Shown: piece by piece, positions 162 through 57,084 of the stretch
How the letters are laid out: every line of letters starts with the position of its first letter
How positions within the stretch are numbered: position 1 is the stretch's first letter
Source: Blautia sp.
GTDB taxonomy: Bacteria; Bacillota; Clostridia; Lachnospirales; Lachnospiraceae
Direction: 5' to 3'
Length of the DNA: 57,351 nt
NCBI GenBank assembly: GCA_017475035.1
Contig: JAFVGK010000148.1
Location: 1 to 57,351, forward strand
Translations under genes and position numbers: made by a program
The notes under the pieces: generated by a model
Database searches by the model: none
Told to the model about the DNA's origin: nothing
The model's input: the letters and a program-made list of their open reading frames with translations, nothing else

Positions 162-3047
162 ATGCCAGAGGCAATAAAAAAACCTTTTATCCGCATTCGC
201 GGCGCAAATGTTAATAATCTGAAAAACCTGAGCGTGGACATCCCCCGTGACAAGCTGGTCGTATTGACCGGCCTGTCCGGTTCCGGGAAGTCCTCGCTTG
301 CTTTTGACACCATTTATGCGGAAGGTCAGCGGCGGTATATGGAGTCTCTTTCCTCGTATGCGAGGCAGTTTCTGGGCCAGATGGAGAAACCGGATGTGGA
401 AAGCATAGACGGACTCCCCCCCGCGATTTCCATAGACCAGAAATCGACAAACCGGAATCCCCGTTCGACTGTCGGAACCGTGACGGAGATTTATGATTAT
501 TTTCGTCTGCTGTTTGCGAGAGTGGGAATTCCGCATTGTCCCAAATGCGGCAGGGAGATCCGGCGCCAATCGGTCGACCAGATTGTGGATCAGGTTATGG
601 CCTTGCCGGAGCGGACGAAGCTGCAGCTTCTTGCCCCGGTGGTGCGGGGGAGAAAAGGAACGCATGCCAAGGTGCTGGAGCAGGCGAGAAAAAGCGGCTA
701 TGTCCGTGCCCAGGTGGACGGAAATGTCTATGAGCTTTCGGAAGACATCACCCTGGACAAAAATATCAAACACAATATAGAAATTATCGTGGATCGTCTG
801 ATCGTAAAAGAGGGGATCGAAAAACGCCTTGCGGATTCCATCGAAACGGTTCTCGGACTTTCGGATGGCCTGGTGATGGTGGATACGATGGACGGAAATG
901 TAATGACCTACAGCCAGAGCTTTTTATGCCCGGACTGCGGGATCAGCATTGCCGAGATCGAGCCGAGAAGCTTTTCCTTCAATAATCCCTTCGGAGCCTG
1001 TCCCGACTGTCTGGGCCTGGGATATAAGATGGAGTTTGACATAGACCTGATGATTCCCGATCCGTCCCTGTCGATTCTGGATGGAGCGATCGTGGTAACC
1101 GGATGGCAGTCCAGCTCGACGCCGGGGAGCTTTTCCCGCGCCATGCTTGACGCCCTTGCGGAAGAATATGGCTTTTCTCTGGATACTCCCTTTGAAGAGT
1201 ATCCGGACAAGATCAAGGATATCCTAATCAACGGAACAGGCGGACACGTTGTAAAGGTCCGTTACCGCGGACAGAGAGGCGAAGGAGTTTATGATGTCGC
1301 CTTTCCGGGTCTGATCAAAAATGTAGAGCAAAGATACAGGGAAACGGCTTCCGAAATGATGAAGGCGGAATACGAGTCTTTCATGCAGATTACACCTTGC
1401 AAAACCTGCGGGGGGCAAAGGCTGAAGAAGGAATCCCTTGCCGTAACGGTGGCAGGAAAAAACATCTACGAATGGACGGACATGCCTGTCGAGAAGCTGG
1501 TTACGTTCCTGGAAGAAATGAAGCTGACGCAGCAGCAGCAGCTGATCGGACGGCAGGTCTTAAAGGAAATCAAAAACCGTGTGGGTTTTCTGTCGGAAGT
1601 GGGACTGGAGTACCTGACCCTTTCCCGGGCGACGGGAACGCTTTCCGGAGGGGAAGCGCAGCGTATCCGCCTGGCAACGCAGATCGGTTCCGGCCTGGTG
1701 GGGGTTGCCTATATTCTGGATGAGCCGAGCATCGGCCTGCATCAAAGGGACAACGATAAACTGCTCAGCGCCTTGAAAAGGCTGCGGGATCTGGGCAACA
1801 GCCTCATTGTGGTTGAGCACGACGAGGATACCATGCGGGCTGCGGACTGTATCGTGGATATCGGGCCTGGCGCAGGCTCCCACGGAGGCGAGCTGGTAGC
1901 GATGGGAACCGTAGAGGATCTGATCAACACGCCTGCCTCCATTACGGGGGATTATCTGGCGGGGAGAAGGTACATCGCGGTTCCGGACAAACGAAGGGAG
2001 CCCAGGGGCTTTCTGACGGTGAAGGGAGCGGCACAGAATAATTTAAAGCATATCGACGTACAGATTCCGCTGGGCGTAATGACCTGCGTAACAGGCGTTT
2101 CCGGATCCGGGAAAAGCTCCCTGATAAATGAAATTCTTTATAAAAAGCTTGCCAGAGTCCTGAACCGCGCCAGGACAATTCCGGGAAAGCATGATGATGT
2201 CATCGGCACGGAGCAGCTGGATAAGGTGATCTGTATCGATCAGTCTCCCATCGGAAGAACGCCCAGGTCAAATCCGGCAACCTATACGGGAGTATTTGAC
2301 CAGATCCGCGACCTTTTTGCCGCAACCGCGGACGCAAAGGCAAAGGGCTATAAAAAAGGACGTTTTTCTTTTAACGTTAAGGGAGGACGTTGTGAAGCCT
2401 GCAGCGGAGACGGCATCATCCGGATTGAAATGCATTTTCTGCCGGATGTATATGTGCCCTGCGAAGTCTGCAAGGGTAAGCGGTATAACCGTGAAACCCT
2501 TGACGTGAAATATAAGGGAAAAAGCATCTTTGACGTGCTGGATATGACGGTGGAAGAGGCACTGACCTTTTTTGACGCGGTTCCTTCGATACGTAATAAG
2601 ATGCAGACCTTATATGATGTGGGACTGTCTTATATCAAACTGGGACAGCCTTCCACGGAGCTGTCCGGAGGAGAAGCGCAGAGAGTAAAACTTGCGACAG
2701 AGCTGGCCCGGCGCAGTACGGGAAAAACGATTTATATTCTGGATGAGCCGACGACGTGTCTGCATTTCGAGGATGTAAACAAGCTGGTTATGATTTTGCG
2801 CCGGCTTGCAGAGGGCGGAAACACGGTGGTTGTGATCGAACATAATCTGGATGTGATCAAAACCGCGGATTATCTGATTGATATGGGACCGGAAGGCGGT
2901 GACGGAGGCGGCCGTGTCGTGACGTGCGGAACGCCCGAGGAGGTAGCGGAAGATCCGGCCTCGTATACGGGGATATACCTGAGGAGACTGCTCTCATCTT
3001 CCGCACCTGCAGCTGGCGAAGCAGCAGGATCGTCATCCGGAATATAG
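162..3047 (+). CDS. uvrA: Excinuclease ABC subunit A (UvrA)
   Basis: Damage-recognition ATPase of nucleotide excision repair; it works as a dimer with UvrB in the cytoplasm. Two ABC ATPase modules are visible: Walker [10 protein letters not shown] at residues 37-45 and GVSGSGKSS near 644-652, with LSGGEAQR signatures near 495 and 832. Zinc-binding CxxC pairs lie near 125, 255-280, 412 and 743-770. ATG 162 follows AAGAGGAGG at a good distance. At 961 residues it is slightly long for the family: the last roughly 20 residues (Ser/Ala/Gly-rich) are encoded by a copy of the R1 repeat that also appears between other genes. uvrB is not in the window and is probably upstream. Confidence 0.98.
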
Positions 3048-3052
3048 AGGAG
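2981..3052 (+). repeat. R1 repeat, copy H, forming the uvrA 3' end
   Basis: It begins GAGGAGACTG like the other R1 copies and retains AGCAGGATCGTCATCCGG, then ends in ATAGAGGAG. It lacks the later third of the element. It encodes the UvrA C-terminal tail and stop codon and lies 36 bases before the mreB-like start. Assignment is by eye comparison with the copies at 10939 and 21311. Confidence 0.65.
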
Positions 3053-3087
3053 ATTTTTGAAAGCTGATCAAGGGAGGAAAACGAACT

Positions 3088-10938: not shown

Positions 10939-11040
10939 AAAGGAGACTGATTTTGTCTTCGGCATCCCAACTGCCGAAGCAGCAAAATCGTCATCCGAAG
11001 ACATGGAGTTAACGTGCTAAAATTTCGTTTCGAGAGGAGA
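10939..11040 (+). repeat. R1 repeat, copy A, upstream of the HPr gene
   Basis: Full-length copy of about 100 bp. It starts AAAGGAGACTG, holds GTCTTCGG (early) and CCGAAGAC (late) as long-range arms with TGCCGAAG as a competing local partner, and ends GAGAGGAGA, the Shine-Dalgarno of the next gene. It fills nearly the whole gap between cdaR and the HPr gene. Confidence 0.85.
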
Positions 11041-11048
11041 ATCGCGAT

Positions 11049-11315
11049 ATGGTGAGCCGTAAAGTGAAAGTGATCAATCCTTCCGGGCTGCACCTGAGTC
11101 CGGCAGGCAGGCTTTGCCAGGAAGCCCTGAAATACCGCTCTTCTGTCTGGCTTTCTTTTGATGGGACAAAAGCAAACGCCAAAAGCGTTCTTTCGGTTCT
11201 GGATGCCTGTGTCAAGTGTTCGGATGAGATCGAGATTATCTGCGATGGGGAAGACGAGGAACAGGCATTGGCTGCCTTGATTGTTGAAATAGAGGAAGGC
11301 TTGGGGGAGTGCTGA
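11049..11315 (+). CDS. HPr-family protein with an atypical active site
   Basis: The 88-residue sequence has the HPr fold: GLHLSPAG around His15, NAKSVLSV around Ser46 and the C-terminal DGEDEEQAL helix. His15 (PTS phosphorylation) and Ser46 (HPr kinase site) are kept, but the Arg17 found in the usual GLHARPA motif is Ser17 here. That residue helps position the phosphohistidine, so phosphotransfer may be weak and the role regulatory. ATG 11049 uses the Shine-Dalgarno at the end of an R1 repeat. No PTS enzyme lies nearby. It ends one base before rfbC. Confidence 0.9.
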   Translation: MVSRKVKVINPSGLHLSPAGRLCQEALKYRSSVWLSFDGTKANAKSVLSVLDACVKCSDEIEIICDGEDEEQALAALIVEIEEGLGEC

Positions 11316-12738: not shown

Positions 12739-14028
12739 TTGACTGACAAAACCGTAATCAAGGTCGAAGAACTGACCAAATTATATAAGCTTTATGAAAA
12801 GCCGTCTGACCGCCTCCGGGAAGCGCTGGGGCTGTCCCGGAAAAAAAGATACACGGAGCATTATGCGCTGCGCCATGTAAGCTTTTCGGTAAAAGAAGGC
12901 GAATGCGTCGGGATTATCGGAACGAACGGTTCCGGCAAATCCACCCTTCTGAAGATTATCACGGGCGTACTTGCCGCAACGGAGGGTACGGTTGAGGTGG
13001 ATGGACGCATTTCCGCGCTCCTGGAGCTGGGCGCGGGCTTTAACATGGAATATACGGGGATCGAAAACATTCATCTGAACGGGGCAATGCTGGGGTTTTC
13101 TTCCGACGAGATTGAAAAACGACTTCCCGCCATCCTGTCCTTCGCGGACATCGGGGAATTTGTATATCAGCCTGTGAAAACGTATTCCAGCGGCATGTTT
13201 GTCCGGCTTGCTTTTGCGCTGGCGATCAACATTGAGCCGGAGATTCTGATTGTTGACGAAGCCCTTTCCGTCGGTGATGTGTTCTTCCAGGCAAAATGCT
13301 TCCATAAGTTTGAAGAGTTTAAATCCCAGGGCAAGACGATTCTTTTCGTCAGCCATGATCTGAGCAGTGTTTCAAAATACTGTGACCGGGTCATCCTTCT
13401 CGACCGTGGAGTGAAGCGCGGAGAGGGTACGGCAAAGGCTATGGTAGACGCCTACAAGCAGCTGCTGGTCGGCACGGAGATCAGGGAAGCCTCGGAAGAA
13501 GCCGCGGCACCATTGCCGGCGGCGGAAAATACGTTTGTATTGAATCCGGAGGTTCTTTCCTATGGCGAAAAACAGGCGGAAATCATAGATATCCGTGTAC
13601 TGGATGACCACGATCTTCCGACCAATACCATCCAAAAAGGTTCCGTCTTCCATATCCGGGTCACGGTTTGTTTCCATCAGGCAGTGGATGAGCCTATCGT
13701 GGCTTTTACCTTTAAAGATGTGAGAGGAACCGAAATAACCGGGACCAATACGATGTTTGAGAAAAAAGAAAAGATCATCGCGAAGCCGGGAGAGTGCTGT
13801 ACCGTGACGTTTACGCAGAGAATGGATCTCCAGGGAGGAGAATACCTGCTGTCCTTTGGCTGTACGGGATTCCGGGACGGCGAGTTTACCGTGTACCATC
13901 GACTTTATGACGCATGCAATATAACGGTTGTTTCGGAAAAAAATACGGTTGGCTTTTTTGATATGAATTCACAGATCACGATCATCCAGGGGGAGACCTA
14001 TGCAGATTGGAAAAGTAAGAATCGATGA
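12739..14028 (+). CDS. Polysaccharide ABC transporter ATPase with Wzt-type C-terminal domain
   Basis: ATPase partner of the upstream permease. Walker A GTNGSGKST lies at 61-69, signature YSSGMFVRLAFAL near 149-161 and Walker B ILIVDEALSVGD near 170-181, with the ALLELGAGFN stretch typical of this exporter class. Beyond about 270 there is a beta-sandwich region like the Wzt C-terminal domain, which in Gram-negative O9a-type systems binds the modified end of the polymer. The start is TTG 12739 with GGAGAA upstream. It overlaps the following methyltransferase gene by 29 bases, consistent with a functional link between chain capping and export. Confidence 0.94.
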   Translation: MTDKTVIKVEELTKLYKLYEKPSDRLREALGLSRKKRYTEHYALRHVSFSVKEGECVGIIGTNGSGKSTLLKIITGVLAATEGTVEVDGRISALLELGAGFNMEYTGIENIHLNGAMLGFSSDEIEKRLPAILSFADIGEFVYQPVKTYSSGMFVRLAFALAINIEPEILIVDEALSVGDVFFQAKCFHKFEEFKSQGKTILFVSHDLSSVSKYCDRVILLDRGVKRGEGTAKAMVDAYKQLLVGTEIREASEEAAAPLPAAENTFVLNPEVLSYGEKQAEIIDIRVLDDHDLPTNTIQKGSVFHIRVTVCFHQAVDEPIVAFTFKDVRGTEITGTNTMFEKKEKIIAKPGECCTVTFTQRMDLQGGEYLLSFGCTGFRDGEFTVYHRLYDACNITVVSEKNTVGFFDMNSQITIIQGETYADWKSKNR

Positions 14029-16393
14029 TTCCTGCTATCCGGGTGAAGATTTGTATACGGACGGAAGCATCGAAGATGAAATGTTGAAGATGGCAAAGGA
14101 GCTTTCGGAAGACGAACTGCAGAAGCAGATCGCTGTACGGGGAAGCTGGCCGCTGCTCTATCATTTTTCCTCTGTCCGCGGAAATATTGTCCGATGGCTG
14201 CCGTTTACCAGGGCAGATGATGTATTGGAGATCGGCTCAGGCTGCGGAGCGGTTACCGGGACACTTTGCTCGATGGCCGGCAGTGTAGACGCGGTGGATC
14301 TGTCGATGAAGAGAAGCCTGGTGAATGCCTTCCGTAACCAAAACCGGGAAAATCTGACCATTTGGACAGGAAACTTTGAAGATGTGGAAAAAAGCCTTAA
14401 AAAGAGGTATGACTATATTACACTGATCGGCGTATTTGAGTATGCAAGGCTCTATATTCATTCCGACCGGCCCTTTACGGATTTTTTAAAGGTCTGCCGA
14501 AGACACTTAAAACCCGGAGGACAGCTGATTATCGCCATCGAAAACCGTTTTGGCCTGAAATACTGGGCCGGCTGCACGGAGGATCATGACGGGCTCCTGT
14601 TTGACGGGCTGGAAGGTTACCCCTCCGGGACTGAGGTCCGCACATTTACCAGGAAGGAACTGACGGGAATCATAAAGGAAGCCGGAGGGTTTACGGATTC
14701 CTGGTTTTATCCGTTCCCGGATTATAAGCTGGCATTGGAGATTCACTCGGATCGGCGTCTGCCGTTAAAAGGAGAGCTGAATCGGGCGGAATACAATTAC
14801 GACCGCCTGGCACTGAAGCTTTTTGACGAGTCAAGGGTGTTTGATTCGGTTCTGGAAAACGGGCTGTATCCATGGTTCGCAAATTCTTATCTTGTTATTC
14901 TGAAAAACGTGGAGGATTCCATACCGTCCTCCCATAACGAAGCTTTGAACATGGATTCAATGACTTCGGATCATGATTTTACTGCTTCGGCAGATGGACT
15001 GCAGAAGACAAAACCAGTCTCTTTTGCCACGTCATACGTAAAGTTTTCACTGGAAAGGGCGGCTTCGTTCAGACTGATCACGAAAATAGAACCTGCCGCT
15101 CTCCATACAGGCGAAGCTGATAAACAGGAGAATTCTCTGCTTCCTGCTGCCGTCATAAAAGAAGCAGCCGAAGAAGCGGCAGATGCCCATATTGCCGCTT
15201 TGGCCGTGACAGCTGAAGAACTGAGGGAGGCGTACAGACCTGCGGGGCTTCTGACAGCCCCCTGTCAGCTTCAAAAAGCCCGTTCCGGAAGATGCGAGGC
15301 GGTTTATCCCTTTATTGAAGGGAGAAATCTGGAGGAGTATCTGGATGAGCTGATGGACCGCGGGCAGGTGCGGGATGCCGCCGCAGTGCTCCTGGAATAT
15401 GCCGGGAAGCTCCGGATTGTCGGAGATGCGCGTCCCTTTGTGATGACCCCGGATTTTGAGAAGGTCTTCGGAACCCCGATGCTGCCGGATCATCTTTCTT
15501 CGGCAGAAGTAACCAATATTGATGTGGTTCCGTCTAACCTGATGATCCATGAAGACGGCAGGGCGACGGTGCTGGATGTGGAATGGACATTCTCTTTTCC
15601 GGTTCCTTCCGGTTATGTGATCTATCGCTTTCTTCATTATTATATGGAAAGTGACGGAAAACGCTATGCCCTTCATGGGGAAAGCCTGTATGAGAGGGCA
15701 GGGCTGTCAGAAGCGGAGCTTTCCTGTTATCCCGCCATGGAAGAGCATTTTCAGACCTGGCTGTTATCCGGCACAGTTCCGCTGCGGCTCTTATATCCGG
15801 TGATTTCCCCGGGAAGACTGCCGGTTCAGCCTGTTTTTGAACAGGGAGCGGTCCTGCGCGGCAGGGGAGAGCTCCAGGTTTTTTATGACATGGGAGAAGG
15901 ATTCTGTGAAGATCATTCCGAGCTGTTTCCCATTCAGGAGGGAGTCATGGAGATCCCGATTCCCGCCCTTTGCCGTGAGGTACGTATAGACCCCGGAGAA
16001 TATCCCGTGGGGTTTTCCGCCGTCCGTCTGCTGTGGCAGGACGGTGAGCAGGTCAGGTTTCGCACCAACGGCGTCATTGTCGGGGAGGGAGTCTATTTTC
16101 CCATGCCTGACCCACAGCTCCTGATTGATGATATTCCTTCCGGGAAATCAGAATTAAGGCTGGAGCTTGTACCGGATCTTGAGCGGGATGTGATTCGCTA
16201 TGGTGTTGAAGAAATGCGCAGGCAGCTGGAAGAACGCATTGCGGAAACACAGCGGCGTACGAACGAGCTGGAGCTGTGCCGGGAACAGATCCGTCAGATG
16301 GAAAATACAAAGGTGTGGAAATTATACCGGAAATGTAAGTCCGTTCTGGCAGCCTTGAAAACAGGAGGCGGATCGGCGGGGAATACGGTATAA
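14000..16393 (+). CDS. Methyltransferase / kinase-like protein with C-terminal coiled coil (WbdD-like architecture)
   Basis: The 797-residue protein has a class I SAM methyltransferase domain (about 50-300; motif VLEIGSGCGAVTG at 75-87). A second domain (about 345-600) has features of a protein-kinase-like fold: NIDVVPSNLM near 506 with the Asp and Asn spacing of a catalytic loop, and VLDVEW near 524 in the position of DFG. A beta-rich region follows, then a coiled coil (about 731-765) and a WKLYRKCKSVL tail. This order matches WbdD, the methyltransferase-kinase that ends O-antigen chains; kinase activity is inferred. Residues about 313-345 are encoded by an antisense R1 repeat. ATG 14000 follows AGGGGGAGA and overlaps wzt. 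Confidence 0.85.
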   Translation: MQIGKVRIDDSCYPGEDLYTDGSIEDEMLKMAKELSEDELQKQIAVRGSWPLLYHFSSVRGNIVRWLPFTRADDVLEIGSGCGAVTGTLCSMAGSVDAVDLSMKRSLVNAFRNQNRENLTIWTGNFEDVEKSLKKRYDYITLIGVFEYARLYIHSDRPFTDFLKVCRRHLKPGGQLIIAIENRFGLKYWAGCTEDHDGLLFDGLEGYPSGTEVRTFTRKELTGIIKEAGGFTDSWFYPFPDYKLALEIHSDRRLPLKGELNRAEYNYDRLALKLFDESRVFDSVLENGLYPWFANSYLVILKNVEDSIPSSHNEALNMDSMTSDHDFTASADGLQKTKPVSFATSYVKFSLERAASFRLITKIEPAALHTGEADKQENSLLPAAVIKEAAEEAADAHIAALAVTAEELREAYRPAGLLTAPCQLQKARSGRCEAVYPFIEGRNLEEYLDELMDRGQVRDAAAVLLEYAGKLRIVGDARPFVMTPDFEKVFGTPMLPDHLSSAEVTNIDVVPSNLMIHEDGRATVLDVEWTFSFPVPSGYVIYRFLHYYMESDGKRYALHGESLYERAGLSEAELSCYPAMEEHFQTWLLSGTVPLRLLYPVISPGRLPVQPVFEQGAVLRGRGELQVFYDMGEGFCEDHSELFPIQEGVMEIPIPALCREVRIDPGEYPVGFSAVRLLWQDGEQVRFRTNGVIVGEGVYFPMPDPQLLIDDIPSGKSELRLELVPDLERDVIRYGVEEMRRQLEERIAETQRRTNELELCREQIRQMENTKVWKLYRKCKSVLAALKTGGGSAGNTV
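14936..15033 (-). repeat. R1 repeat, copy G, inserted antisense and in-frame in the methyltransferase gene
   Basis: The reverse complement reads GAGACTGGTTTTGTCTTC, then CTGCCGAAGCAG, ATGATCCGAAGTCATTGA and CTTCGTTATG in the same order and spacing as the intergenic copies at 10939 and 21311. It keeps the reading frame open and adds about 33 residues rich in Asp, Ser, Thr and Ala between the methyltransferase and kinase-like domains. Confidence 0.8.
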
Positions 16394-21192: not shown

Positions 21193-21242
21193 ATCCGTTT
21201 CCGATATGGTCAGCGTCACGCAAAGGAAACGGATTCTTTTTC
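21193..21242 (+). terminator. Terminator-like hairpin in the leader of the glycosyltransferase operon
   Basis: Perfect 10-bp arms ATCCGTTTCC (21193-21202) and GGAAACGGAT (21225-21234) are followed by TCTTTTTC. It lies about 30 bases after the predicted transcription start and before the R1 pair, so it may act as an attenuator. Confidence 0.55.
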
Positions 21243-21312
21243 GGCATCGAGAAGGCCGAAGCCGCATAATCGTCATCCGTGGTCATTGAGTCAATGTACA
21301 TATTGCGTTATG
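21224..21312 (+). repeat. R1 repeat, copy B', first of a tandem pair
   Basis: A diverged copy with TTCGGC, GGCCGAAG, ATCGTCATCCG and CATTGAGTCAATGTACA. It runs into GGGAGACTGG, where the second copy begins, so the two units share the GGAG junction. Confidence 0.7.
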
Positions 21313-21410
21313 GGAGACTGGTTCTGTCTTCGGCAGCTCAACTGCCGAAACAGCAAAATCGTCATCCGAAGACATTGAGTCAGCGTACAGAACTTCGTTT
21401 TGGGAGGAGG
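21311..21410 (+). repeat. R1 repeat, copy B, upstream of a glycosyltransferase gene
   Basis: Full-length, well-preserved copy with GTCTTCGGCAG, CTGCCGAAA, ATCGTCATCCGAAGACATTG and CTTCGTTTTGGGAGGAGG. The final GGGAGGAGG is the ribosome-binding site of the gene at 21418. Confidence 0.88.
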
Positions 21411-21417
21411 TAGAGGG

Positions 21418-27395: not shown

Positions 27396-27470
27396 TGATT
27401 CATGATTCGCGGAAGCAGCTCCGCTGTAAAACGATTCATAGAATCAGGCCGCAATCATGATTTATGAATC
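27396..27470 (+). repeat. R3 palindromic repeat, copy 2
   Basis: It contains GATTCGCGGAAGCAGCTCCG and CGATTCATAGAATCAGGC, close to the copy at 78-160. Outer arms GATTCAT and ATGAATC enclose it. The right arm includes ATG 27464, the first possible start of the next gene. Confidence 0.6.
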
Positions 27471-31852: not shown

Positions 31853-31939
31853 CTCCCACGGGAGATGGCTCGGCTGTTATTTTCATGCCAAGCGAATGTG
31901 ACAATGTTCCGGGAGCCATCGCCAGCCCTGAAGCCGAGC
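31853..31939. repeat. Overlapping inverted repeats able to form alternative hairpins
   Basis: GATGGCTC (31864-31871) pairs with GAGCCATC (31913-31920), while the overlapping GCTCGGCT (31868-31875) pairs with AGCCGAGC (31932-31939). Only one of the two can form at once. A short CTCCC/GGGAG hairpin (31853-31864) overlaps the left side. It lies between a terminator and the htpG CIRCE operator; no gene is seen here. Confidence 0.5.
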
Positions 31940-31985
31940 GTCACGATATACAATACCCTAAGGATTGTCATCTCTATCTCATTTA

Positions 31986-36279: not shown

Positions 36280-36338
36280 GCTCTCCGAACGCATCCGGAA
36301 GACTCAAACCTTTGTTGATGCAATCAGATATTCAGTAA

Positions 36339-36424
36339 AGAGACCGGTTTTATATTCGGCGGGCCAGGGCTGCCGAAGCGTCATCCGTAAATGATATGTC
36401 AGTATAAAACCGTGTTTTAAGAGG
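36339..36424 (+). repeat. R1 repeat, copy C', first of a tandem pair
   Basis: Diverged copy with TATTCGGC, CTGCCGAAG, CGTCATCCG and the alternative tail TATGTCAGTATAAAAC ending in TTTTAAGAGGAGA. The same alternative tail occurs at 54871 and, in part, at 46512. The preceding TTTGTTGATGCAATCA resembles the right side of the R3 copy before uvrA. Confidence 0.65.
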
Positions 36425-36520
36425 AGACTGATTCTGTCATCGGCAGTCCAACTGCCAAAGCAGCAAAGTCGTCATCCGAAAACATTGAGTCAACGTACAA
36501 TATTTCGTTCTGAGAGGAGA
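36421..36520 (+). repeat. R1 repeat, copy C, upstream of the 81-residue gene
   Basis: GAGGAGACTGATTCTGTC, CAACTGCC, CGTCATCCG, CATTGAGTCAACGTACA and final TGAGAGGAGA, which is the ribosome-binding site. Its long-range arms are partly decayed (GTCATCGG and CCGAAAAC). Confidence 0.85.
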
Positions 36521-36527
36521 AAATGCA

Positions 36528-36773
36528 ATGAGTCAGAAAAAGGTAGATGCTTATAAGCAGGAAAAGGCGAATCGTGAAAAGATAATGAAAAAGGAAAAAG
36601 CAATCCTGCGTCTGGAAAAGTGTATTGCCGCGGTTATCTGCGCTGCTGTTATATGCTGGGTAGGATTTTCGATTTACGATAAAACCGTTTCCGAGCCGGT
36701 CGAAGAGAAACAGGATACACAGATCGATACTACGGCACTCGATGATTATCTTAATGGATTAAACGCTGAATGA
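36528..36773 (+). CDS. Small single-pass membrane protein
   Basis: 81 residues: a Lys/Glu-rich coiled-coil-like N-terminus (1-30), one TM helix (about 31-52, IAAVICAAVICWVGFSIYD) and an acidic extracytoplasmic tail (about 55-81). No family recognised. It is credible as a gene because a strong GAGAGGAGA precedes ATG 36528 and a good terminator follows. The ribosome-binding site belongs to an R1 repeat. An upstream ATG at 36523 would give only a two-residue peptide. Confidence 0.75.
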   Translation: MSQKKVDAYKQEKANREKIMKKEKAILRLEKCIAAVICAAVICWVGFSIYDKTVSEPVEEKQDTQIDTTALDDYLNGLNAE

Positions 36774-45674: not shown

Positions 45675-45727
45675 TAAATCGTTATCCGAAGACATTGAGT
45701 CAACGTCAGAACTGCGTTTAAGAGGAG
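45675..45727 (+). repeat. R1 repeat, copy D1, 3' part only
   Basis: AAATCGTTATCCGAAGACAT, TTGAGTCAACG and CTGCGTTTAAGAGGAGA are present; the left hairpin is missing. It begins at the end of the M29 gene, as if its left part was lost when the gene end formed. Confidence 0.7.
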
Positions 45728-45823
45728 ACATATTTTGCCCAGGGCTGCGTTTTTTGCAGGCGTGACTGCAAAATAGTCATCCGTGATCATTGAGTCAACG
45801 TACAAAACTTCGTTTTGGGAGGA
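45722..45823 (+). repeat. R1 repeat, copy D2, upstream of purE
   Basis: Diverged left hairpin (GGGCTGCG...), then GTCATCCGTGATCATTGAG, AACGTACAAAACTTCG and final GGGAGGAGG, the purE ribosome-binding site. It is tandem with D1, sharing GAGGAGA at the junction. Confidence 0.75.
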
Positions 45824-45833
45824 GGAAAAACAG

Positions 45834-46530: not shown

Positions 46531-46626
46531 AAGAGGAGACTGAATTTTGTTTTGGGCAGCCCGACTGCCATGGCAGCAGAATCGTCATCCGAAGACATTG
46601 AATCAACATACAGAATAAGAGGAGGA
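46531..46626 (+). repeat. R1 repeat, copy E, upstream of purM
   Basis: AAGAGGAGACTGAATTTTG, CGACTGCC, GCAGAATCGTCATCCGAAG, CATTGAATCAACATACAG and final AAGAGGAGG, which is the purM ribosome-binding site. Part of the usual CTTCGTTTT tail is missing. Confidence 0.85.
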
Positions 46627-51743: not shown

Positions 51744-54700
51744 ATGGAATACATGCAGGAAAGATGGACACCGGAAGCCGAACGCGTGTTGGATATGGCA
51801 GTCTTGACAGCTGCATCCTTACATCATAATTATGTAGGTACGGAACATCTGCTTGCCGGACTTTTGGCGGTGAAGGATACGGTTGCGGAAAAGACCTTAC
51901 GCGGTTTTTCCGTGGAACCGGCAAAGCTTCTGGAATTGATCAGAAAGCTGATAGCGCCGCAGGAAGAGACCAAGGAGGAAAAGGAAACGTCTGACTCGGA
52001 CAGGACAGACGGATCAGATCAGAAACCTGTAGATGAAAAGGATGCGGAAATCATTGAGGATCAGGCAGACGGGAAATCCGCTGAAGAGACGCCGCAGGAT
52101 TCACAAAACGAGGGTACGCCTGAGGAAGGAACGAATGAGGCAGGAGATCAGACCATAGCTGTGCAGGAGAAGCCTGTACAGGATGATGAAACGGGAACCG
52201 CAAAATTATCCCGGGAAGGCTCCGGAAAGAATGAAGCCGCGTTTTCTTTAGAGGCTTCCCTGGTATCGACGATTAAAGAACTATTGTTCGGAAGCTCACT
52301 GACCGGCGAAGAAGAGCGGAAAAAGGCTTTCAGAGATGAAAAAAAAGAGTCGTCTTCACAAAATGAAACTTCCATGAAAGAGAAAGACGAGGAGGTTAAG
52401 GCGGAAAAAACCGGGCCGGAAGAAACCGGAACGGAAGAAACCGGGCCGGAAGAAACCAGAACCGAAGAAGCTTCCGGATTGCAGGAAGGCACAGGCCTGG
52501 ATCTGATTCCCCAGTCTGTGGAGGATTTTGTCCTGTCTGTAAAAGAAATGGGAACAGAGCCGCGCAACAGTCCCCGCCTGGAATTTGTTCTGGAGGAAGC
52601 TCTCGCAGACGCACAGGCGAGGAGGGATGACGCGGCCGGAACGGCACATCTGCTGCTCGCGATGCTGAGACAGACGGATTGCGTGGCTACCAGGCTTCTG
52701 ATAACGATGGATGTCAATATTCAGCAGTTATATTCTTCTGTCCTGACATCGATGGGGCTTGACAAACAATCCGTCATGCGTGAAGTACGGGAGCTGGGAG
52801 GAGAAGAAGGTACGTCACTGACACCGACTCTGGATAAGTTTTCCAGGGACCTTACGGTGCTGGCGGCGGAAGGACGCATGGATCCGATTATCGGGCGAGA
52901 AAAAGAGATTTCACGCCTGATCCAGGTTTTAAGCCGCCGCACTAAGAATAATCCATGTCTGGTGGGGGAACCGGGAGTCGGAAAAACTGCTATCGTGGAA
53001 GGGCTGGCGCAGCGGATCGTCAAAGGACAGGTTCCTGAATCCATGCTGGACCGCAGGGTTGTGATGCTGGATATGTCCGGTATGGTAGCCGGCACCAAAT
53101 ATCGCGGCGAGTTTGAAGAGAGAATTCATCGTGTCATCGAAGAGGTGTGTGATCATCCGGGTATTCTGCTCTTTCTGGATGAACTGCATACAATTATAGG
53201 AGCCGGCGGAGCGGAGGGATCCCTGGACGCCGCCAATATTTTGAAGCCGGCGTTATCCCGGGGAGAATTGCAGGTCATTGGAGCCACAACCCTGGAAGAA
53301 TACCGAAAATATATCGAAAAGGACGCCGCGCTGGAGCGGAGATTTGCCCCTGTGACGGTGGAAGAGCCAAGCCAGGAGGAAACAGTCAGCATTCTGAAGG
53401 GACTGCGGCCTATGTATGAAGAGCATCATGGCGTGCAGATTCTGGATGAAGCGCTGGAGGCTGCGGTGGCAATGTCTGTCAGGTATATCAGTGACAGATT
53501 TCTGCCGGACAAGGCGATTGATGTAATGGATGAGGCAGCTGCCAGAACGCGGTTATATCATAATAATGAAGAAAATACCGCGGCTGACGGTTTTCTGGAA
53601 AAGAACAGGGAGAAGGAAGAGGAGCTGGAGGAGGCTCTCCGGCAGGGCGATATAAAACTGGCTTACAGTATCCGGCTGGAGCAGACGGAAGCAAGGAAGG
53701 CTTTTGAAGAGGAGAGAAACGAACACCTCCAGACAGAGACGGAAGACAGGAGGGTTGTCGGAGAGACGGAAATTGCTGCTGTCATTTCCGATTGGACCAA
53801 GGTTCCTGTACAGCAGCTTACGGAAAAAGAGTCTGAGAGGCTGGCTCATCTGGAAGAAGAGCTTCATAAGAGGGTGATCGGTCAGGAGGATGCCGTCAAA
53901 GCTGTGGCGCTGGCTGTCAAGCGAGGCAGAGTGGGCTTGAAAGACCCGCGCCGTCCTATCGGTTCATTTCTGTTTCTCGGACCAACCGGCGTGGGAAAGA
54001 CAGAATTGTCCAAGGCTTTGGCGGAAGCCGTTTTCGGCAGTGAGCAGAATATGATCCGGGTGGATATGTCCGAATATATGGAGAAGCATTCCGTGTCTAA
54101 GCTGATCGGTTCTCCTCCGGGATATGTGGGTTTTGACGAGGGCGGCCAGCTGAGCGAAAAGGTTCGGCGCAATCCATACAGTGTCATCTTGTTTGATGAG
54201 ATTGAAAAGGCTCATCCCGATGTCTTTAATATCCTTTTGCAGGTTTTGGACGATGGACACATTACGGATGCGCATGGAAGAAAAGTTAATTTTAAGCAGA
54301 CAATCATTATCATGACTTCCAATGCCGGAGCTGCCTCAATCGTAGAGCCAAAGAGGCTTGGTTTTGTGTCGGGATCAGATGAGAAGCAGGATTACGAACG
54401 CATGAAATCCGGAGTGATGGAAGAAGTGAAAAGGATTTTCCGACCGGAATTTCTGAACCGTATCGATGAAATCATGGTATTCCATATGCTGAATGAGGAC
54501 GAGATCCGGGCGATCGTGAACCTGATGTTCAAAGAACTGACAGATCGGTGCGAGAAGCAGATGCGGATACATCTTGAGATTGCGCCGGAGGTTTGTGACG
54601 AGATTGCGAAGGCAGGCTTTGATCCTAAATACGGAGCCCGTCCGCTGCGCCGACAGATTCAGACAAGAATTGAGGATCTGCTTGCGACACAGCTTCTTGA

Positions 54701-54773
54701 GGGAAAGGTACACACGCAGGATAAGGTCCGGATTGAACTGAAAGACGGTGAAATAGAGATGAATGTCGTCTGA
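51744..54773 (+). CDS. clpC: ClpC-type AAA+ unfoldase with a large acidic insert in the N-domain
   Basis: Hexameric unfoldase that feeds ClpP. Two ClpN repeats (about 8-75 and 270-340) are separated by about 190 residues rich in Glu, Asp, Thr, Gly, with near-repeats such as [18 protein letters not shown]1 Walker [10 protein letters not shown] at 409-417; a short UVR-like middle segment near 620-660; NBD2 Walker [10 protein letters not shown] near 746; pore loop GYVGFDEGG; ClpP-docking LGF in KRLGFVSG. Length 1009 against about 815 for B. subtilis ClpC. ctsR, mcsA and mcsB are not adjacent. ATG 51744 follows GAGAGGGGG. Its stop codon lies in R1 sequence. Confidence 0.94.
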
Positions 54774-54804
54774 GTCAGCGAACAGAATTTCGTTTCGGGA
54801 GGAG
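54771..54804 (+). repeat. R1 repeat, copy F1, 3' fragment containing the clpC stop codon
   Basis: TGAGTCAGCGAACAGAATTT and CGTTTCGGGAGGAG match the right third of R1. The TGA is the stop codon of the clpC-like gene. Confidence 0.7.
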
Positions 54805-54899
54805 ATTGATTTTGCCTTTTGCAGCTTTGGCAGCCGAGGCGGCAGAATTTTTATCCGAAAACAGTATGTCAGTATAAAACTGCGTTTTAAGAAGAGAAG
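54799..54899 (+). repeat. R1 repeat, copy F2, upstream of the 139-residue gene
   Basis: GGAGGAGATTGATTTTGCC, a GGCAGCCGAGGCGGCAG hairpin region, TTATCCGAAAACAG and the alternative tail TATGTCAGTATAAAAC, ending AAGAAGAGAAGG, the ribosome-binding site of the next gene. Diverged but collinear. Confidence 0.75.
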
Positions 54900-54904
54900 G
54901 TCAA

Positions 54905-55324
54905 ATGGCAGTGATAAAAGAAATTCTCCGTACCAACGAGGACGGAAGTATCAGCTTCGGAAATTATGAGCTGGAAGAAAAGACAAAGCTTTCTGATCAT
55001 CCGTTCCGGGGAGATATGTATAAGGTCAAAACATTTCGGGAGATTACAAAGCTGGAAAGAAATGAAATGTTTGTGTACGAGTCAGTCCCGGGAACAGCGG
55101 TTTTTGATCTTTTACAGGATGAAAACGGGATTTCGTTTTGCGTTGAGGGAAATGCGGATGCTCAGATTACCGTGGGCCTGAAAGCGGAAACGGAGTATGA
55201 AGTGATGATTGACGGCGACAGTACCGGGACTATGACGACAAACCTGGGCGGTAAGCTTTCATTTTCTGTGGAACTGGAAAAAAAGGACAGTAAGGTGGAA
55301 GTCGTGATTCGAAGAGTCGGATGA
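54905..55324 (+). CDS. Conserved hypothetical protein, 139 residues
   Basis: No domain recognised. Predicted mostly beta-stranded and acidic, with no signal peptide or TM helix. The C-terminal half (ITVGLKAETEYEVMIDGDSTGTMTTNLGGKLSFSVELEKKDSKVEVVI) reads like a small beta-sandwich with a fibronectin-like pattern. ATG 54905 follows GAAGAGAAGG from R1. It sits between clpC and radA. Function unknown. Confidence 0.8.
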   Translation: MAVIKEILRTNEDGSISFGNYELEEKTKLSDHPFRGDMYKVKTFREITKLERNEMFVYESVPGTAVFDLLQDENGISFCVEGNADAQITVGLKAETEYEVMIDGDSTGTMTTNLGGKLSFSVELEKKDSKVEVVIRRVG

Positions 55325-56821: not shown

Positions 56822-57038
56822 TTGACGCTCAGCTTCAGGGATTGCGCAGGCTGCCGGATCGATGTCACATTCGCTCAGCTGTTCTTTTTCTGATGCGTCG
56901 TTTATTGTGACATCGATCCGGCAGCCTTTCAACGTGGTGAGCCGAGCTGTGCTGTGAGAGCCGGGGGTTATGGTGAAGACGATTGGCTGACGCCCGGCTT
57001 CGGGGATTGCGCAGGCTGCCGGATCGATGTTATATTCG
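56822..57038. repeat. R4 direct/inverted repeat next to the rRNA operon
   Basis: Direct copies at about 56822-56873 and 56987-57038 share GATTGCGCAGGCTGCCGGAT and flanks. The first also pairs with an inverted copy: 21-bp perfect arms at 56849-56869 and 56906-56926 around a 36-base loop. The 56818-57084 interval otherwise shows no gene on either strand. Confidence 0.8.
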
Positions 57039-57084
57039 CATCGATGTGCAGGATAAAAGATTTTAAAAAAAATAAAAAAAGTTG

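Follow-up and report, generated by a model that had tools for sequence, protein, structure and literature searches.

The closest described systems are the REP, RPE and PARCEL repeats and the IS200/IS605 elements. REPs are high-copy hairpins of 20–40 bp with GTAG or CGTC tags at the hairpin foot, which occur predominantly as head-to-head dimers and are in some cases intragenic (PMC3733652). RPEs (Rickettsia palindromic elements) are described as repeats of ~150 bp that lie in frame within unrelated genes (PMC10969869). PARCEL is a palindromic repeat that may be coding and may occur in tandem; the intragenic repeat has a length of 25 residues and is often found in proteins targeted to membranes (PMC2996958). 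IS200/IS605 elements have a palindrome near each end, insert as single strands in a strand-specific manner and pick the cleavage site by guide pairing (PMC8266576).

The repeat analysed here, R1, shares features with each of them. R1 and REPs both form hairpins in high copy number, with a tetranucleotide at the foot, and both have some intragenic copies, but R1 has a length of ~90–97 nt, two unlike hairpins, GGAG and a head-to-tail arrangement, and no RAYT bracketed by R1 was found in the genomes searched. The GTAG type of REP was rejected because the R1 edge is AAAGGAG on a unit of ~90–97 nt and not GTAG beside a hairpin of 20–40 bp. The CGTC type (8–9 bp stem, 4–5 nt loop) was rejected as well, since the stem of R1 is far longer and the CGTC/AGTC on its 3′ side is inconstant. 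With RPEs, R1 has in common the in-frame residence in unrelated coding genes (16 sense copies in called genes, 13 of them in one frame, with TrpE as an example). Compared by description, it is shorter, lies mostly at Shine-Dalgarno sequences (SDs) in gene orientation and has an SD-like end, whereas RPEs have, to our knowledge, no link to SDs. PARCEL resembles R1 in being palindromic repeat DNA with coding and tandem copies and differs in being intragenic, while R1 is an intergenic SD-linked unit. Miniature derivatives of IS200/IS605 have a hairpin near both ends, as has R1. We know of no terminal inverted repeats in IS200/IS605 elements; R1 differs from them in the similar GGAG at both edges, and a transposase with R1-like ends was not found in the genomes searched. 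A classical MITE was rejected because the 5′ GGAGACTGATTTTG and the 3′ GTTTTGGGAGGAG of R1 are not inverted copies of each other (consensus, by eye).

The original prediction had regarded the strict orientation and position of R1 as unusual for REP, BOX or MITE elements. R1 lacks the tags and the size of REPs and the inverted ends of MITEs. No Rfam match in the window reached the gathering score, and a named Rfam RNA was rejected; between 10900 and 11070, one sub-threshold miRNA match was obtained (E 0.29). A repeat targeting SDs was not recognised among the papers listed in the literature searches. R1 is thus REP/RPE-like in habit and IS200/IS605-end-like in anatomy and agrees in full with none of the named families compared. 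Special to R1 is that it apparently lands beside GGAG and gives GGAG back to the gene, which links repeats of the REP/RPE type to translation initiation.

R1 copies in the window

The window is the whole stretch of DNA that was analysed, contig C128 with 57,351 nt. All twelve places originally listed as R1 matched an iterated nucleotide profile, including the antisense copy, and are therefore real copies. They are given below together with the parts of the copy before the HPr gene.

2981–3080, plus strand: degenerate R1 copy (39.9 bits) that holds the end of the gene called uvrA and precedes mreB (3088; PF06723)
10939–10945, plus strand: SD-like 5′ edge AAAGGAG of R1, from the sequence and the AAAGGAG profile of 72 first or single copies
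10940–11041, plus strand: profile match of the R1 copy before the HPr gene (profile 93.0 bits, model 110.3 bits)
10942–10996, plus strand: long 5′ hairpin of R1 with the closing stem GGAGAC...GTCATCC (whole-copy fold z −3.48; family pair counts)
10946–11039, plus strand: R1 unit of ~94 nt before the HPr gene, which begins with the AC next to the 5′ GGAG and ends with GAGGAG
11034–11039, plus strand: terminal GAGGAG of R1, placed as SD of the HPr gene that starts at 11049
11049–11315, plus strand: PTS HPr gene downstream of R1 (Pfam PF00381)
14927–15024, minus strand: R1 copy inside a methyltransferase-domain gene (14000–16393; Pfam), antisense to the gene, with an open frame (83.6 bits)
21223–21316 and 21312–21412, plus strand: head-to-tail R1 pair (63.2 and 104.7 bits) before a glycosyltransferase gene (21418; PF00535)
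36338–36426 and 36421–36521, plus strand: head-to-tail R1 pair, C type then A type (43.6 and 93.8 bits), before a gene for 81 aa (36528)
45675–45721 and 45722–45827, plus strand: truncated A-type R1, then a B-type copy (32.9 and 81.3 bits), between a peptidase-like gene (PF02073) and purE (45834; PF00731)
46533–46625 (profile match to 46615), plus strand: R1 copy between purE and purM (46633) with the terminal GAGGAGG as SD (67.5 bits)
54771–54805, plus strand: truncated R1 copy with the stop codon of a Clp-type ATPase gene (18.0 bits; Clp domains)
54800–54899, plus strand: C-type R1 copy before a gene at 54905 (62.3 bits)

Three of the twelve, at 2981, 45675 and 54771, have degenerated or lost part of the unit. 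The gene upstream of mreB is presumably uvrA, and neither the 81-aa protein at 36528 nor the protein encoded after the Clp-type ATPase gene had a Pfam match. Given the diversity of the downstream genes (mreB, HPr, glycosyltransferase, purE, purM and others), R1 is not an operon-specific leader. Judged by its letters, the AAAGGAG at 10939–10945 is the putative original target of the copy before the HPr gene.

Unit anatomy and folding

R1 is a unit of ~90–97 nt with a long 5′ hairpin after AAAGGAG and a short 3′ hairpin before GGAGGAG. The 5′ hairpin is closed by GGAGAC with GTCATCC, and the 3′ hairpin has the form CAAAAC-TTC-GTTTTG and is followed by GGAGGAG. The common start that had been proposed for all copies could be refined to an edge of AAAGGAG and then AC in the 72 first or single copies, with no conservation upstream; some R1 5′ edges deviate from GGAG. 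Tandem neighbours have one GGAG in common.

The structure alignment contained 68 of the 143 copies and leans to the consensus, because the better-scoring full copies were chosen. Over these copies, pairing was found in 87.1% of the cells compared to 32–53% for slid structures, and 65 cells had double changes compared to 24.9 in shuffles and 19–37 in slid structures. Counted by pairs, 15 had any double change compared to 12–17 in slid controls, and 32 of 500 shuffles reached 15. RNAalifold gave only six pairs with −0.77 kcal/mol on the raw alignment; the fuller hairpin was named from single folds and its pairs were counted afterwards. Folds of five single copies had z values of −3.5, −1.5, −2.0, −6.5 and −3.2. 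When the 5′ arm was instead paired with the downstream CCGAAGAC, 27 double-change cells were counted (11.7 in shuffles), and 5 pairs had double changes compared to 4.8 in shuffles.

Copy number across the genome

The genome is a 5.08-Mb draft of 200 contigs with 93.6% completeness. The profile detected 143 R1 copies, 99 of them full length, in the 819 kb read, a set in which 17 loci are single stretches, nearly all chosen around matches. A 29-nt core pattern (≤3 mismatches) had 146 matches in the genome and its reversed control none; the R1 family is therefore not a product of chance. The model search yielded at least 150 matches. Three contigs (427 kb) that came from the match list and were read whole or nearly so contained 58 copies, from which simple scaling would give ~690 copies per genome. 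On the same contigs, 35 arrays were in SD position and 342 genes were called, so element sequence may underlie about a tenth of the translation starts on them.

The copies form 121 arrays, of which 102 are single, 16 double and 3 triple; full units follow each other head to tail at a spacing of 83–104 nt. The mean pairwise identity was 70% for 60 copies of type A and 75% for 15 of type B; as the copies have diverged, present activity is unproven. A contig of MAG RUG12788 (L159) was 99% identical over 2.7 kb to C132:162258–164963 of the own genome, so it stems from the same species or from contamination.

Orientation and Shine-Dalgarno position

With gene calls from a simple in-house caller, the next gene was on the same strand for 116 of the 143 copies and on the opposite strand for seven, while 19 copies were in genes (16 sense, 3 antisense) and one at a stretch end. 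The strict orientation that had been proposed holds for all eleven plus-strand copies of the window, each upstream of a plus-strand gene, and is a strong trend but not a rule among the 143 copies. SD spacing was taken to mean that a start codon followed the motif by 2–14 nt and opened an ORF of ≥60 aa. It was found for 81 of the 112 arrays with intact 3′ end, compared to 7 of 112 on the antisense side, and among the 31 others, several are apparently genuine sites that the motif rule overlooked. The observation of R1 as a palindromic repeat in SD position before unrelated genes was confirmed.

Outside genes (110 arrays), a same-strand gene came next in 100 cases, an opposite-strand gene in nine and none in one, and 71 of 95 were in SD position. 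The same start-codon rule was applied to intergenic motifs outside R1, with a slightly laxer anchor for R1 (last purine motif near the 3′ end). SDs were found at 276 of 876 GGAG, 150 of 305 AGGAG, 83 of 123 AGGAGG and 44 of 75 AAAGGAG sites. The fraction for R1 was higher than for GGAG (p = 4e-16), AGGAG (p = 1e-5) and AAAGGAG (p = 0.03), but not than for AGGAGG (p = 0.29). Most of the orientation and position is attributable to a strong SD-like target and to the loss of insertions that do harm, and a small extra preference for SDs beyond target choice is possible. Nine arrays contain the stop codon of the upstream gene.

The original prediction had also offered a shared translational control module. 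This was not supported: the downstream genes are unrelated, and the predicted SD accessibility was 0.476 for 83 R1-led genes and 0.453 for 146 ordinary genes (p = 0.33). Neither the downstream gene themes nor the predicted accessibility, a weak test of regulation, gave a sign of a shared switch.

Evidence for insertion into genes and spacers

TrpE contains an in-frame R1 insert of ~30 aa that is absent from 26 of 29 same-genus TrpE proteins, while the other three carry unrelated inserts. At the place of the R1 peptide, the stretch between the aligned blocks is 35 residues shorter in a solved TrpE, and the search matches of many relatives break there. The unrelated inserts in same-genus TrpE (L266, L267 and L268) are of low complexity and lie at the loop that R1 entered.

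Four orthologous spacers were compared, of which only the one between purE and purM was clearly longer here, with 295 nt compared to 14–175 nt in 40 rows from 38 relatives. R1 is absent at two orthologous places, purE–purM and trpE. With the own rows included, the spacers between uvrA and mreB (40 nt, median of relatives 99), between the peptidase-like gene and purE (159 nt, median 106) and between the Clp gene and its neighbour (131 nt, median 127) were not clearly longer, and R1 seems to have replaced spacer at these three places. The near-identical records L145 and L186 had no site of R1 presence and absence.

The frame bias of the sense copies in genes (13 of 16) may be accounted for by the codon context of GGAG without selection. 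A general coding role of R1 was rejected, since neither open frames nor a length divisible by three are constant across copies and genomes. The TrpE insert and the end of the presumed UvrA illustrate that repeats become protein parts. As regards the suggested insertion into SD sites with duplication, the GGAG edges, the stacking and the purE–purM and trpE places argue for insertion at SD-like sites, and GGAG at both edges fits a target-site duplication and an element-borne GGAG end alike.

R1-like families in other genomes

A model search with strict filters and up to 66 candidates per genome in 60 same-genus genomes matched five, namely G000, G062 (at least 32), G073 (at least 26), G032 (at least 6) and G018 (at least 1); the matches listed from this strict search included no R1 for the other 55. 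The core pattern with two mismatches found G000 and one weak match in G032 among 61 genomes. A two-arm pattern found G000 only among 392 genomes of the order, a draw with six other same-genus genomes and none of G062, G073, G032 and G018. The viral collection gave no R1 match.

A scan of named genomes detected at least 87 stretches with an R1-like pattern. Record titles among the matches listed name goat jejunum, sheep duodenum and dairy-cattle duodenum and include other Lachnospiraceae/Clostridia; RUG in record names presumably stands for rumen. The other genomes have their own stem sequences and keep the R1-type ends. Among the 87 matches listed, the terminal motif was in range in 82, with an ATG 7–20 nt after the motif start in 56 of these.

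For the same matches listed, the 3′ hairpin exceeded all 200 shuffles in three of six groups. The mean stem score was 5.0 in the goat-gut group JAFRHH compared to 2.1 for shuffled sequences (n = 29), followed by 4.0 compared to 2.7 in CAMOSC (n = 30) and 3.9 compared to 2.9 in the group of others (n = 12). The scores of OMVU (4.9 and 3.1, n = 4), CAMOXU (3.3 and 3.1, n = 6) and JAFWGA (n = 1) were within the shuffles. JAFRHH has GTGAAC/GTTCAC in place of the CAAAAC/GTTTTG found here, so that the hairpin is kept and its sequence changed.

Search for a mobilising enzyme

Y1 genes were searched with PF01797 in the own genome and ten others (nine with R1-like copies, plus G447), all incomplete. 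The own genome contained one Y1 fragment at a contig edge, which was rejected as mobiliser given that its ends differ from those of R1 and the locus has no R1 match. The ten other genomes had 14 Y1 matches in six genomes, and none of the 14 had R1 on both sides within flanks of up to 1.5 kb that were often ended by contig ends. Longer Y1 genes, which we take to be RAYTs, were present in G032, G447 and G449. Those of G032 and G447 were rejected because they adjoin other repeats, as seen by eye, and the Y1 loci of G451 and G452 because an R1 match was absent.

The repeats beside the longer Y1 genes are GGTTCCCTGGTTCA-like at L253 (G032) and GGTGCCTGACACC-like at L254 (G447) by eye, and they may be distinct REP systems of this genus. 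G449, a goat-gut genome, has an R1 copy (L255:1695–1793) ~150 nt upstream of the one Y1 gene detected there, on one side only. We regard this gene as a lead only in the search for the R1 mobiliser.

Origin and spread of R1

That R1 spread by mobile insertion is very probable in our view. We also consider it probable that R1 is, as a whole, a non-autonomous miniature mobile element which inserts 3′ of GGAG and regenerates the SD that it entered. R1 would enter one strand immediately 3′ of a purine-rich GGAG or AAAGGAG, and the inserted unit would start with AC, continue with the long 5′ and the short 3′ hairpin and end with GGAGGAG. In an SD, the old GGAG would stay at the 5′ edge and the new GGAG would be placed before the start codon with its spacing preserved, so that translation would survive. 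The new GGAG could then be hit again, by which units would stack head to tail, and insertions in genes would persist only if in frame. The target motif and the loss of harmful insertions would thus lead to the orientation and position observed. If so, R1 suggests a low-cost route to high copy number, namely landing on a near-universal gene signal and restoring it. A single-strand enzyme (Y1/HUH, IS200/IS605-like) may move R1, and we propose this route tentatively. More doubtful is the idea that R1 homes to the SD as such and finds it by base pairing between GGAG and the conserved GTCATCC of the element, which would perpetuate its own target while about a tenth of the genes initiate on element sequence.

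The position of R1 before start codons could also be expected from a shared control module whose hairpins sense a signal and gate the terminal SD and which selection retains. The double-change cells of the pairing between the 5′ arm and CCGAAGAC and the SD fraction above that of intergenic AGGAG and AAAGGAG fit such a module, too. It is nevertheless quite improbable, as the downstream genes have no common theme, predicted SD accessibility is that of ordinary genes, the SD fraction does not exceed that of AGGAGG, and the alternative pairs with double changes are at shuffle level. Copies within coding sequences, the 55 of 60 same-genus genomes without a match among those listed in the strict search and the absence of an Rfam match at gathering score argue against it as well.

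We find it unlikely that R1 is an RPE/REP-type repeat which spreads by an unspecified route with loose targeting and whose link to SDs is a residue of purifying selection. In-frame copies inside genes are in line with this reading, and most intergenic AGGAGG sites are SDs anyway, but the AAAGGAG edge of first copies and the stacks that share GGAG speak for a genuine target motif. Spread by template switching or recombination from one GGAG to another would need no transposase and would agree with the PF01797 search in the own genome and ten others, in which a mobiliser was not found; slippage could moreover produce tandem arrays. Many dispersed copies with constant edges in different flanks and the single unit-length insertion in trpE make it the least credible of these explanations, with a very low probability.

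Other repeats in the window

A second, unrelated hairpin-like repeat of 46 nt was found at 77–122 and 27404–27449 (85% identical), just 5′ of genes called at 162 and 27482. Another repeat of ~52 nt occurs at 31891–31943, 56823–56875 and 56988–57039, with one of the three inverted (83%) and the others direct (90%). Within the Clp-type ATPase gene, a tandem repeat with a 15-nt unit spans 52402–52461.
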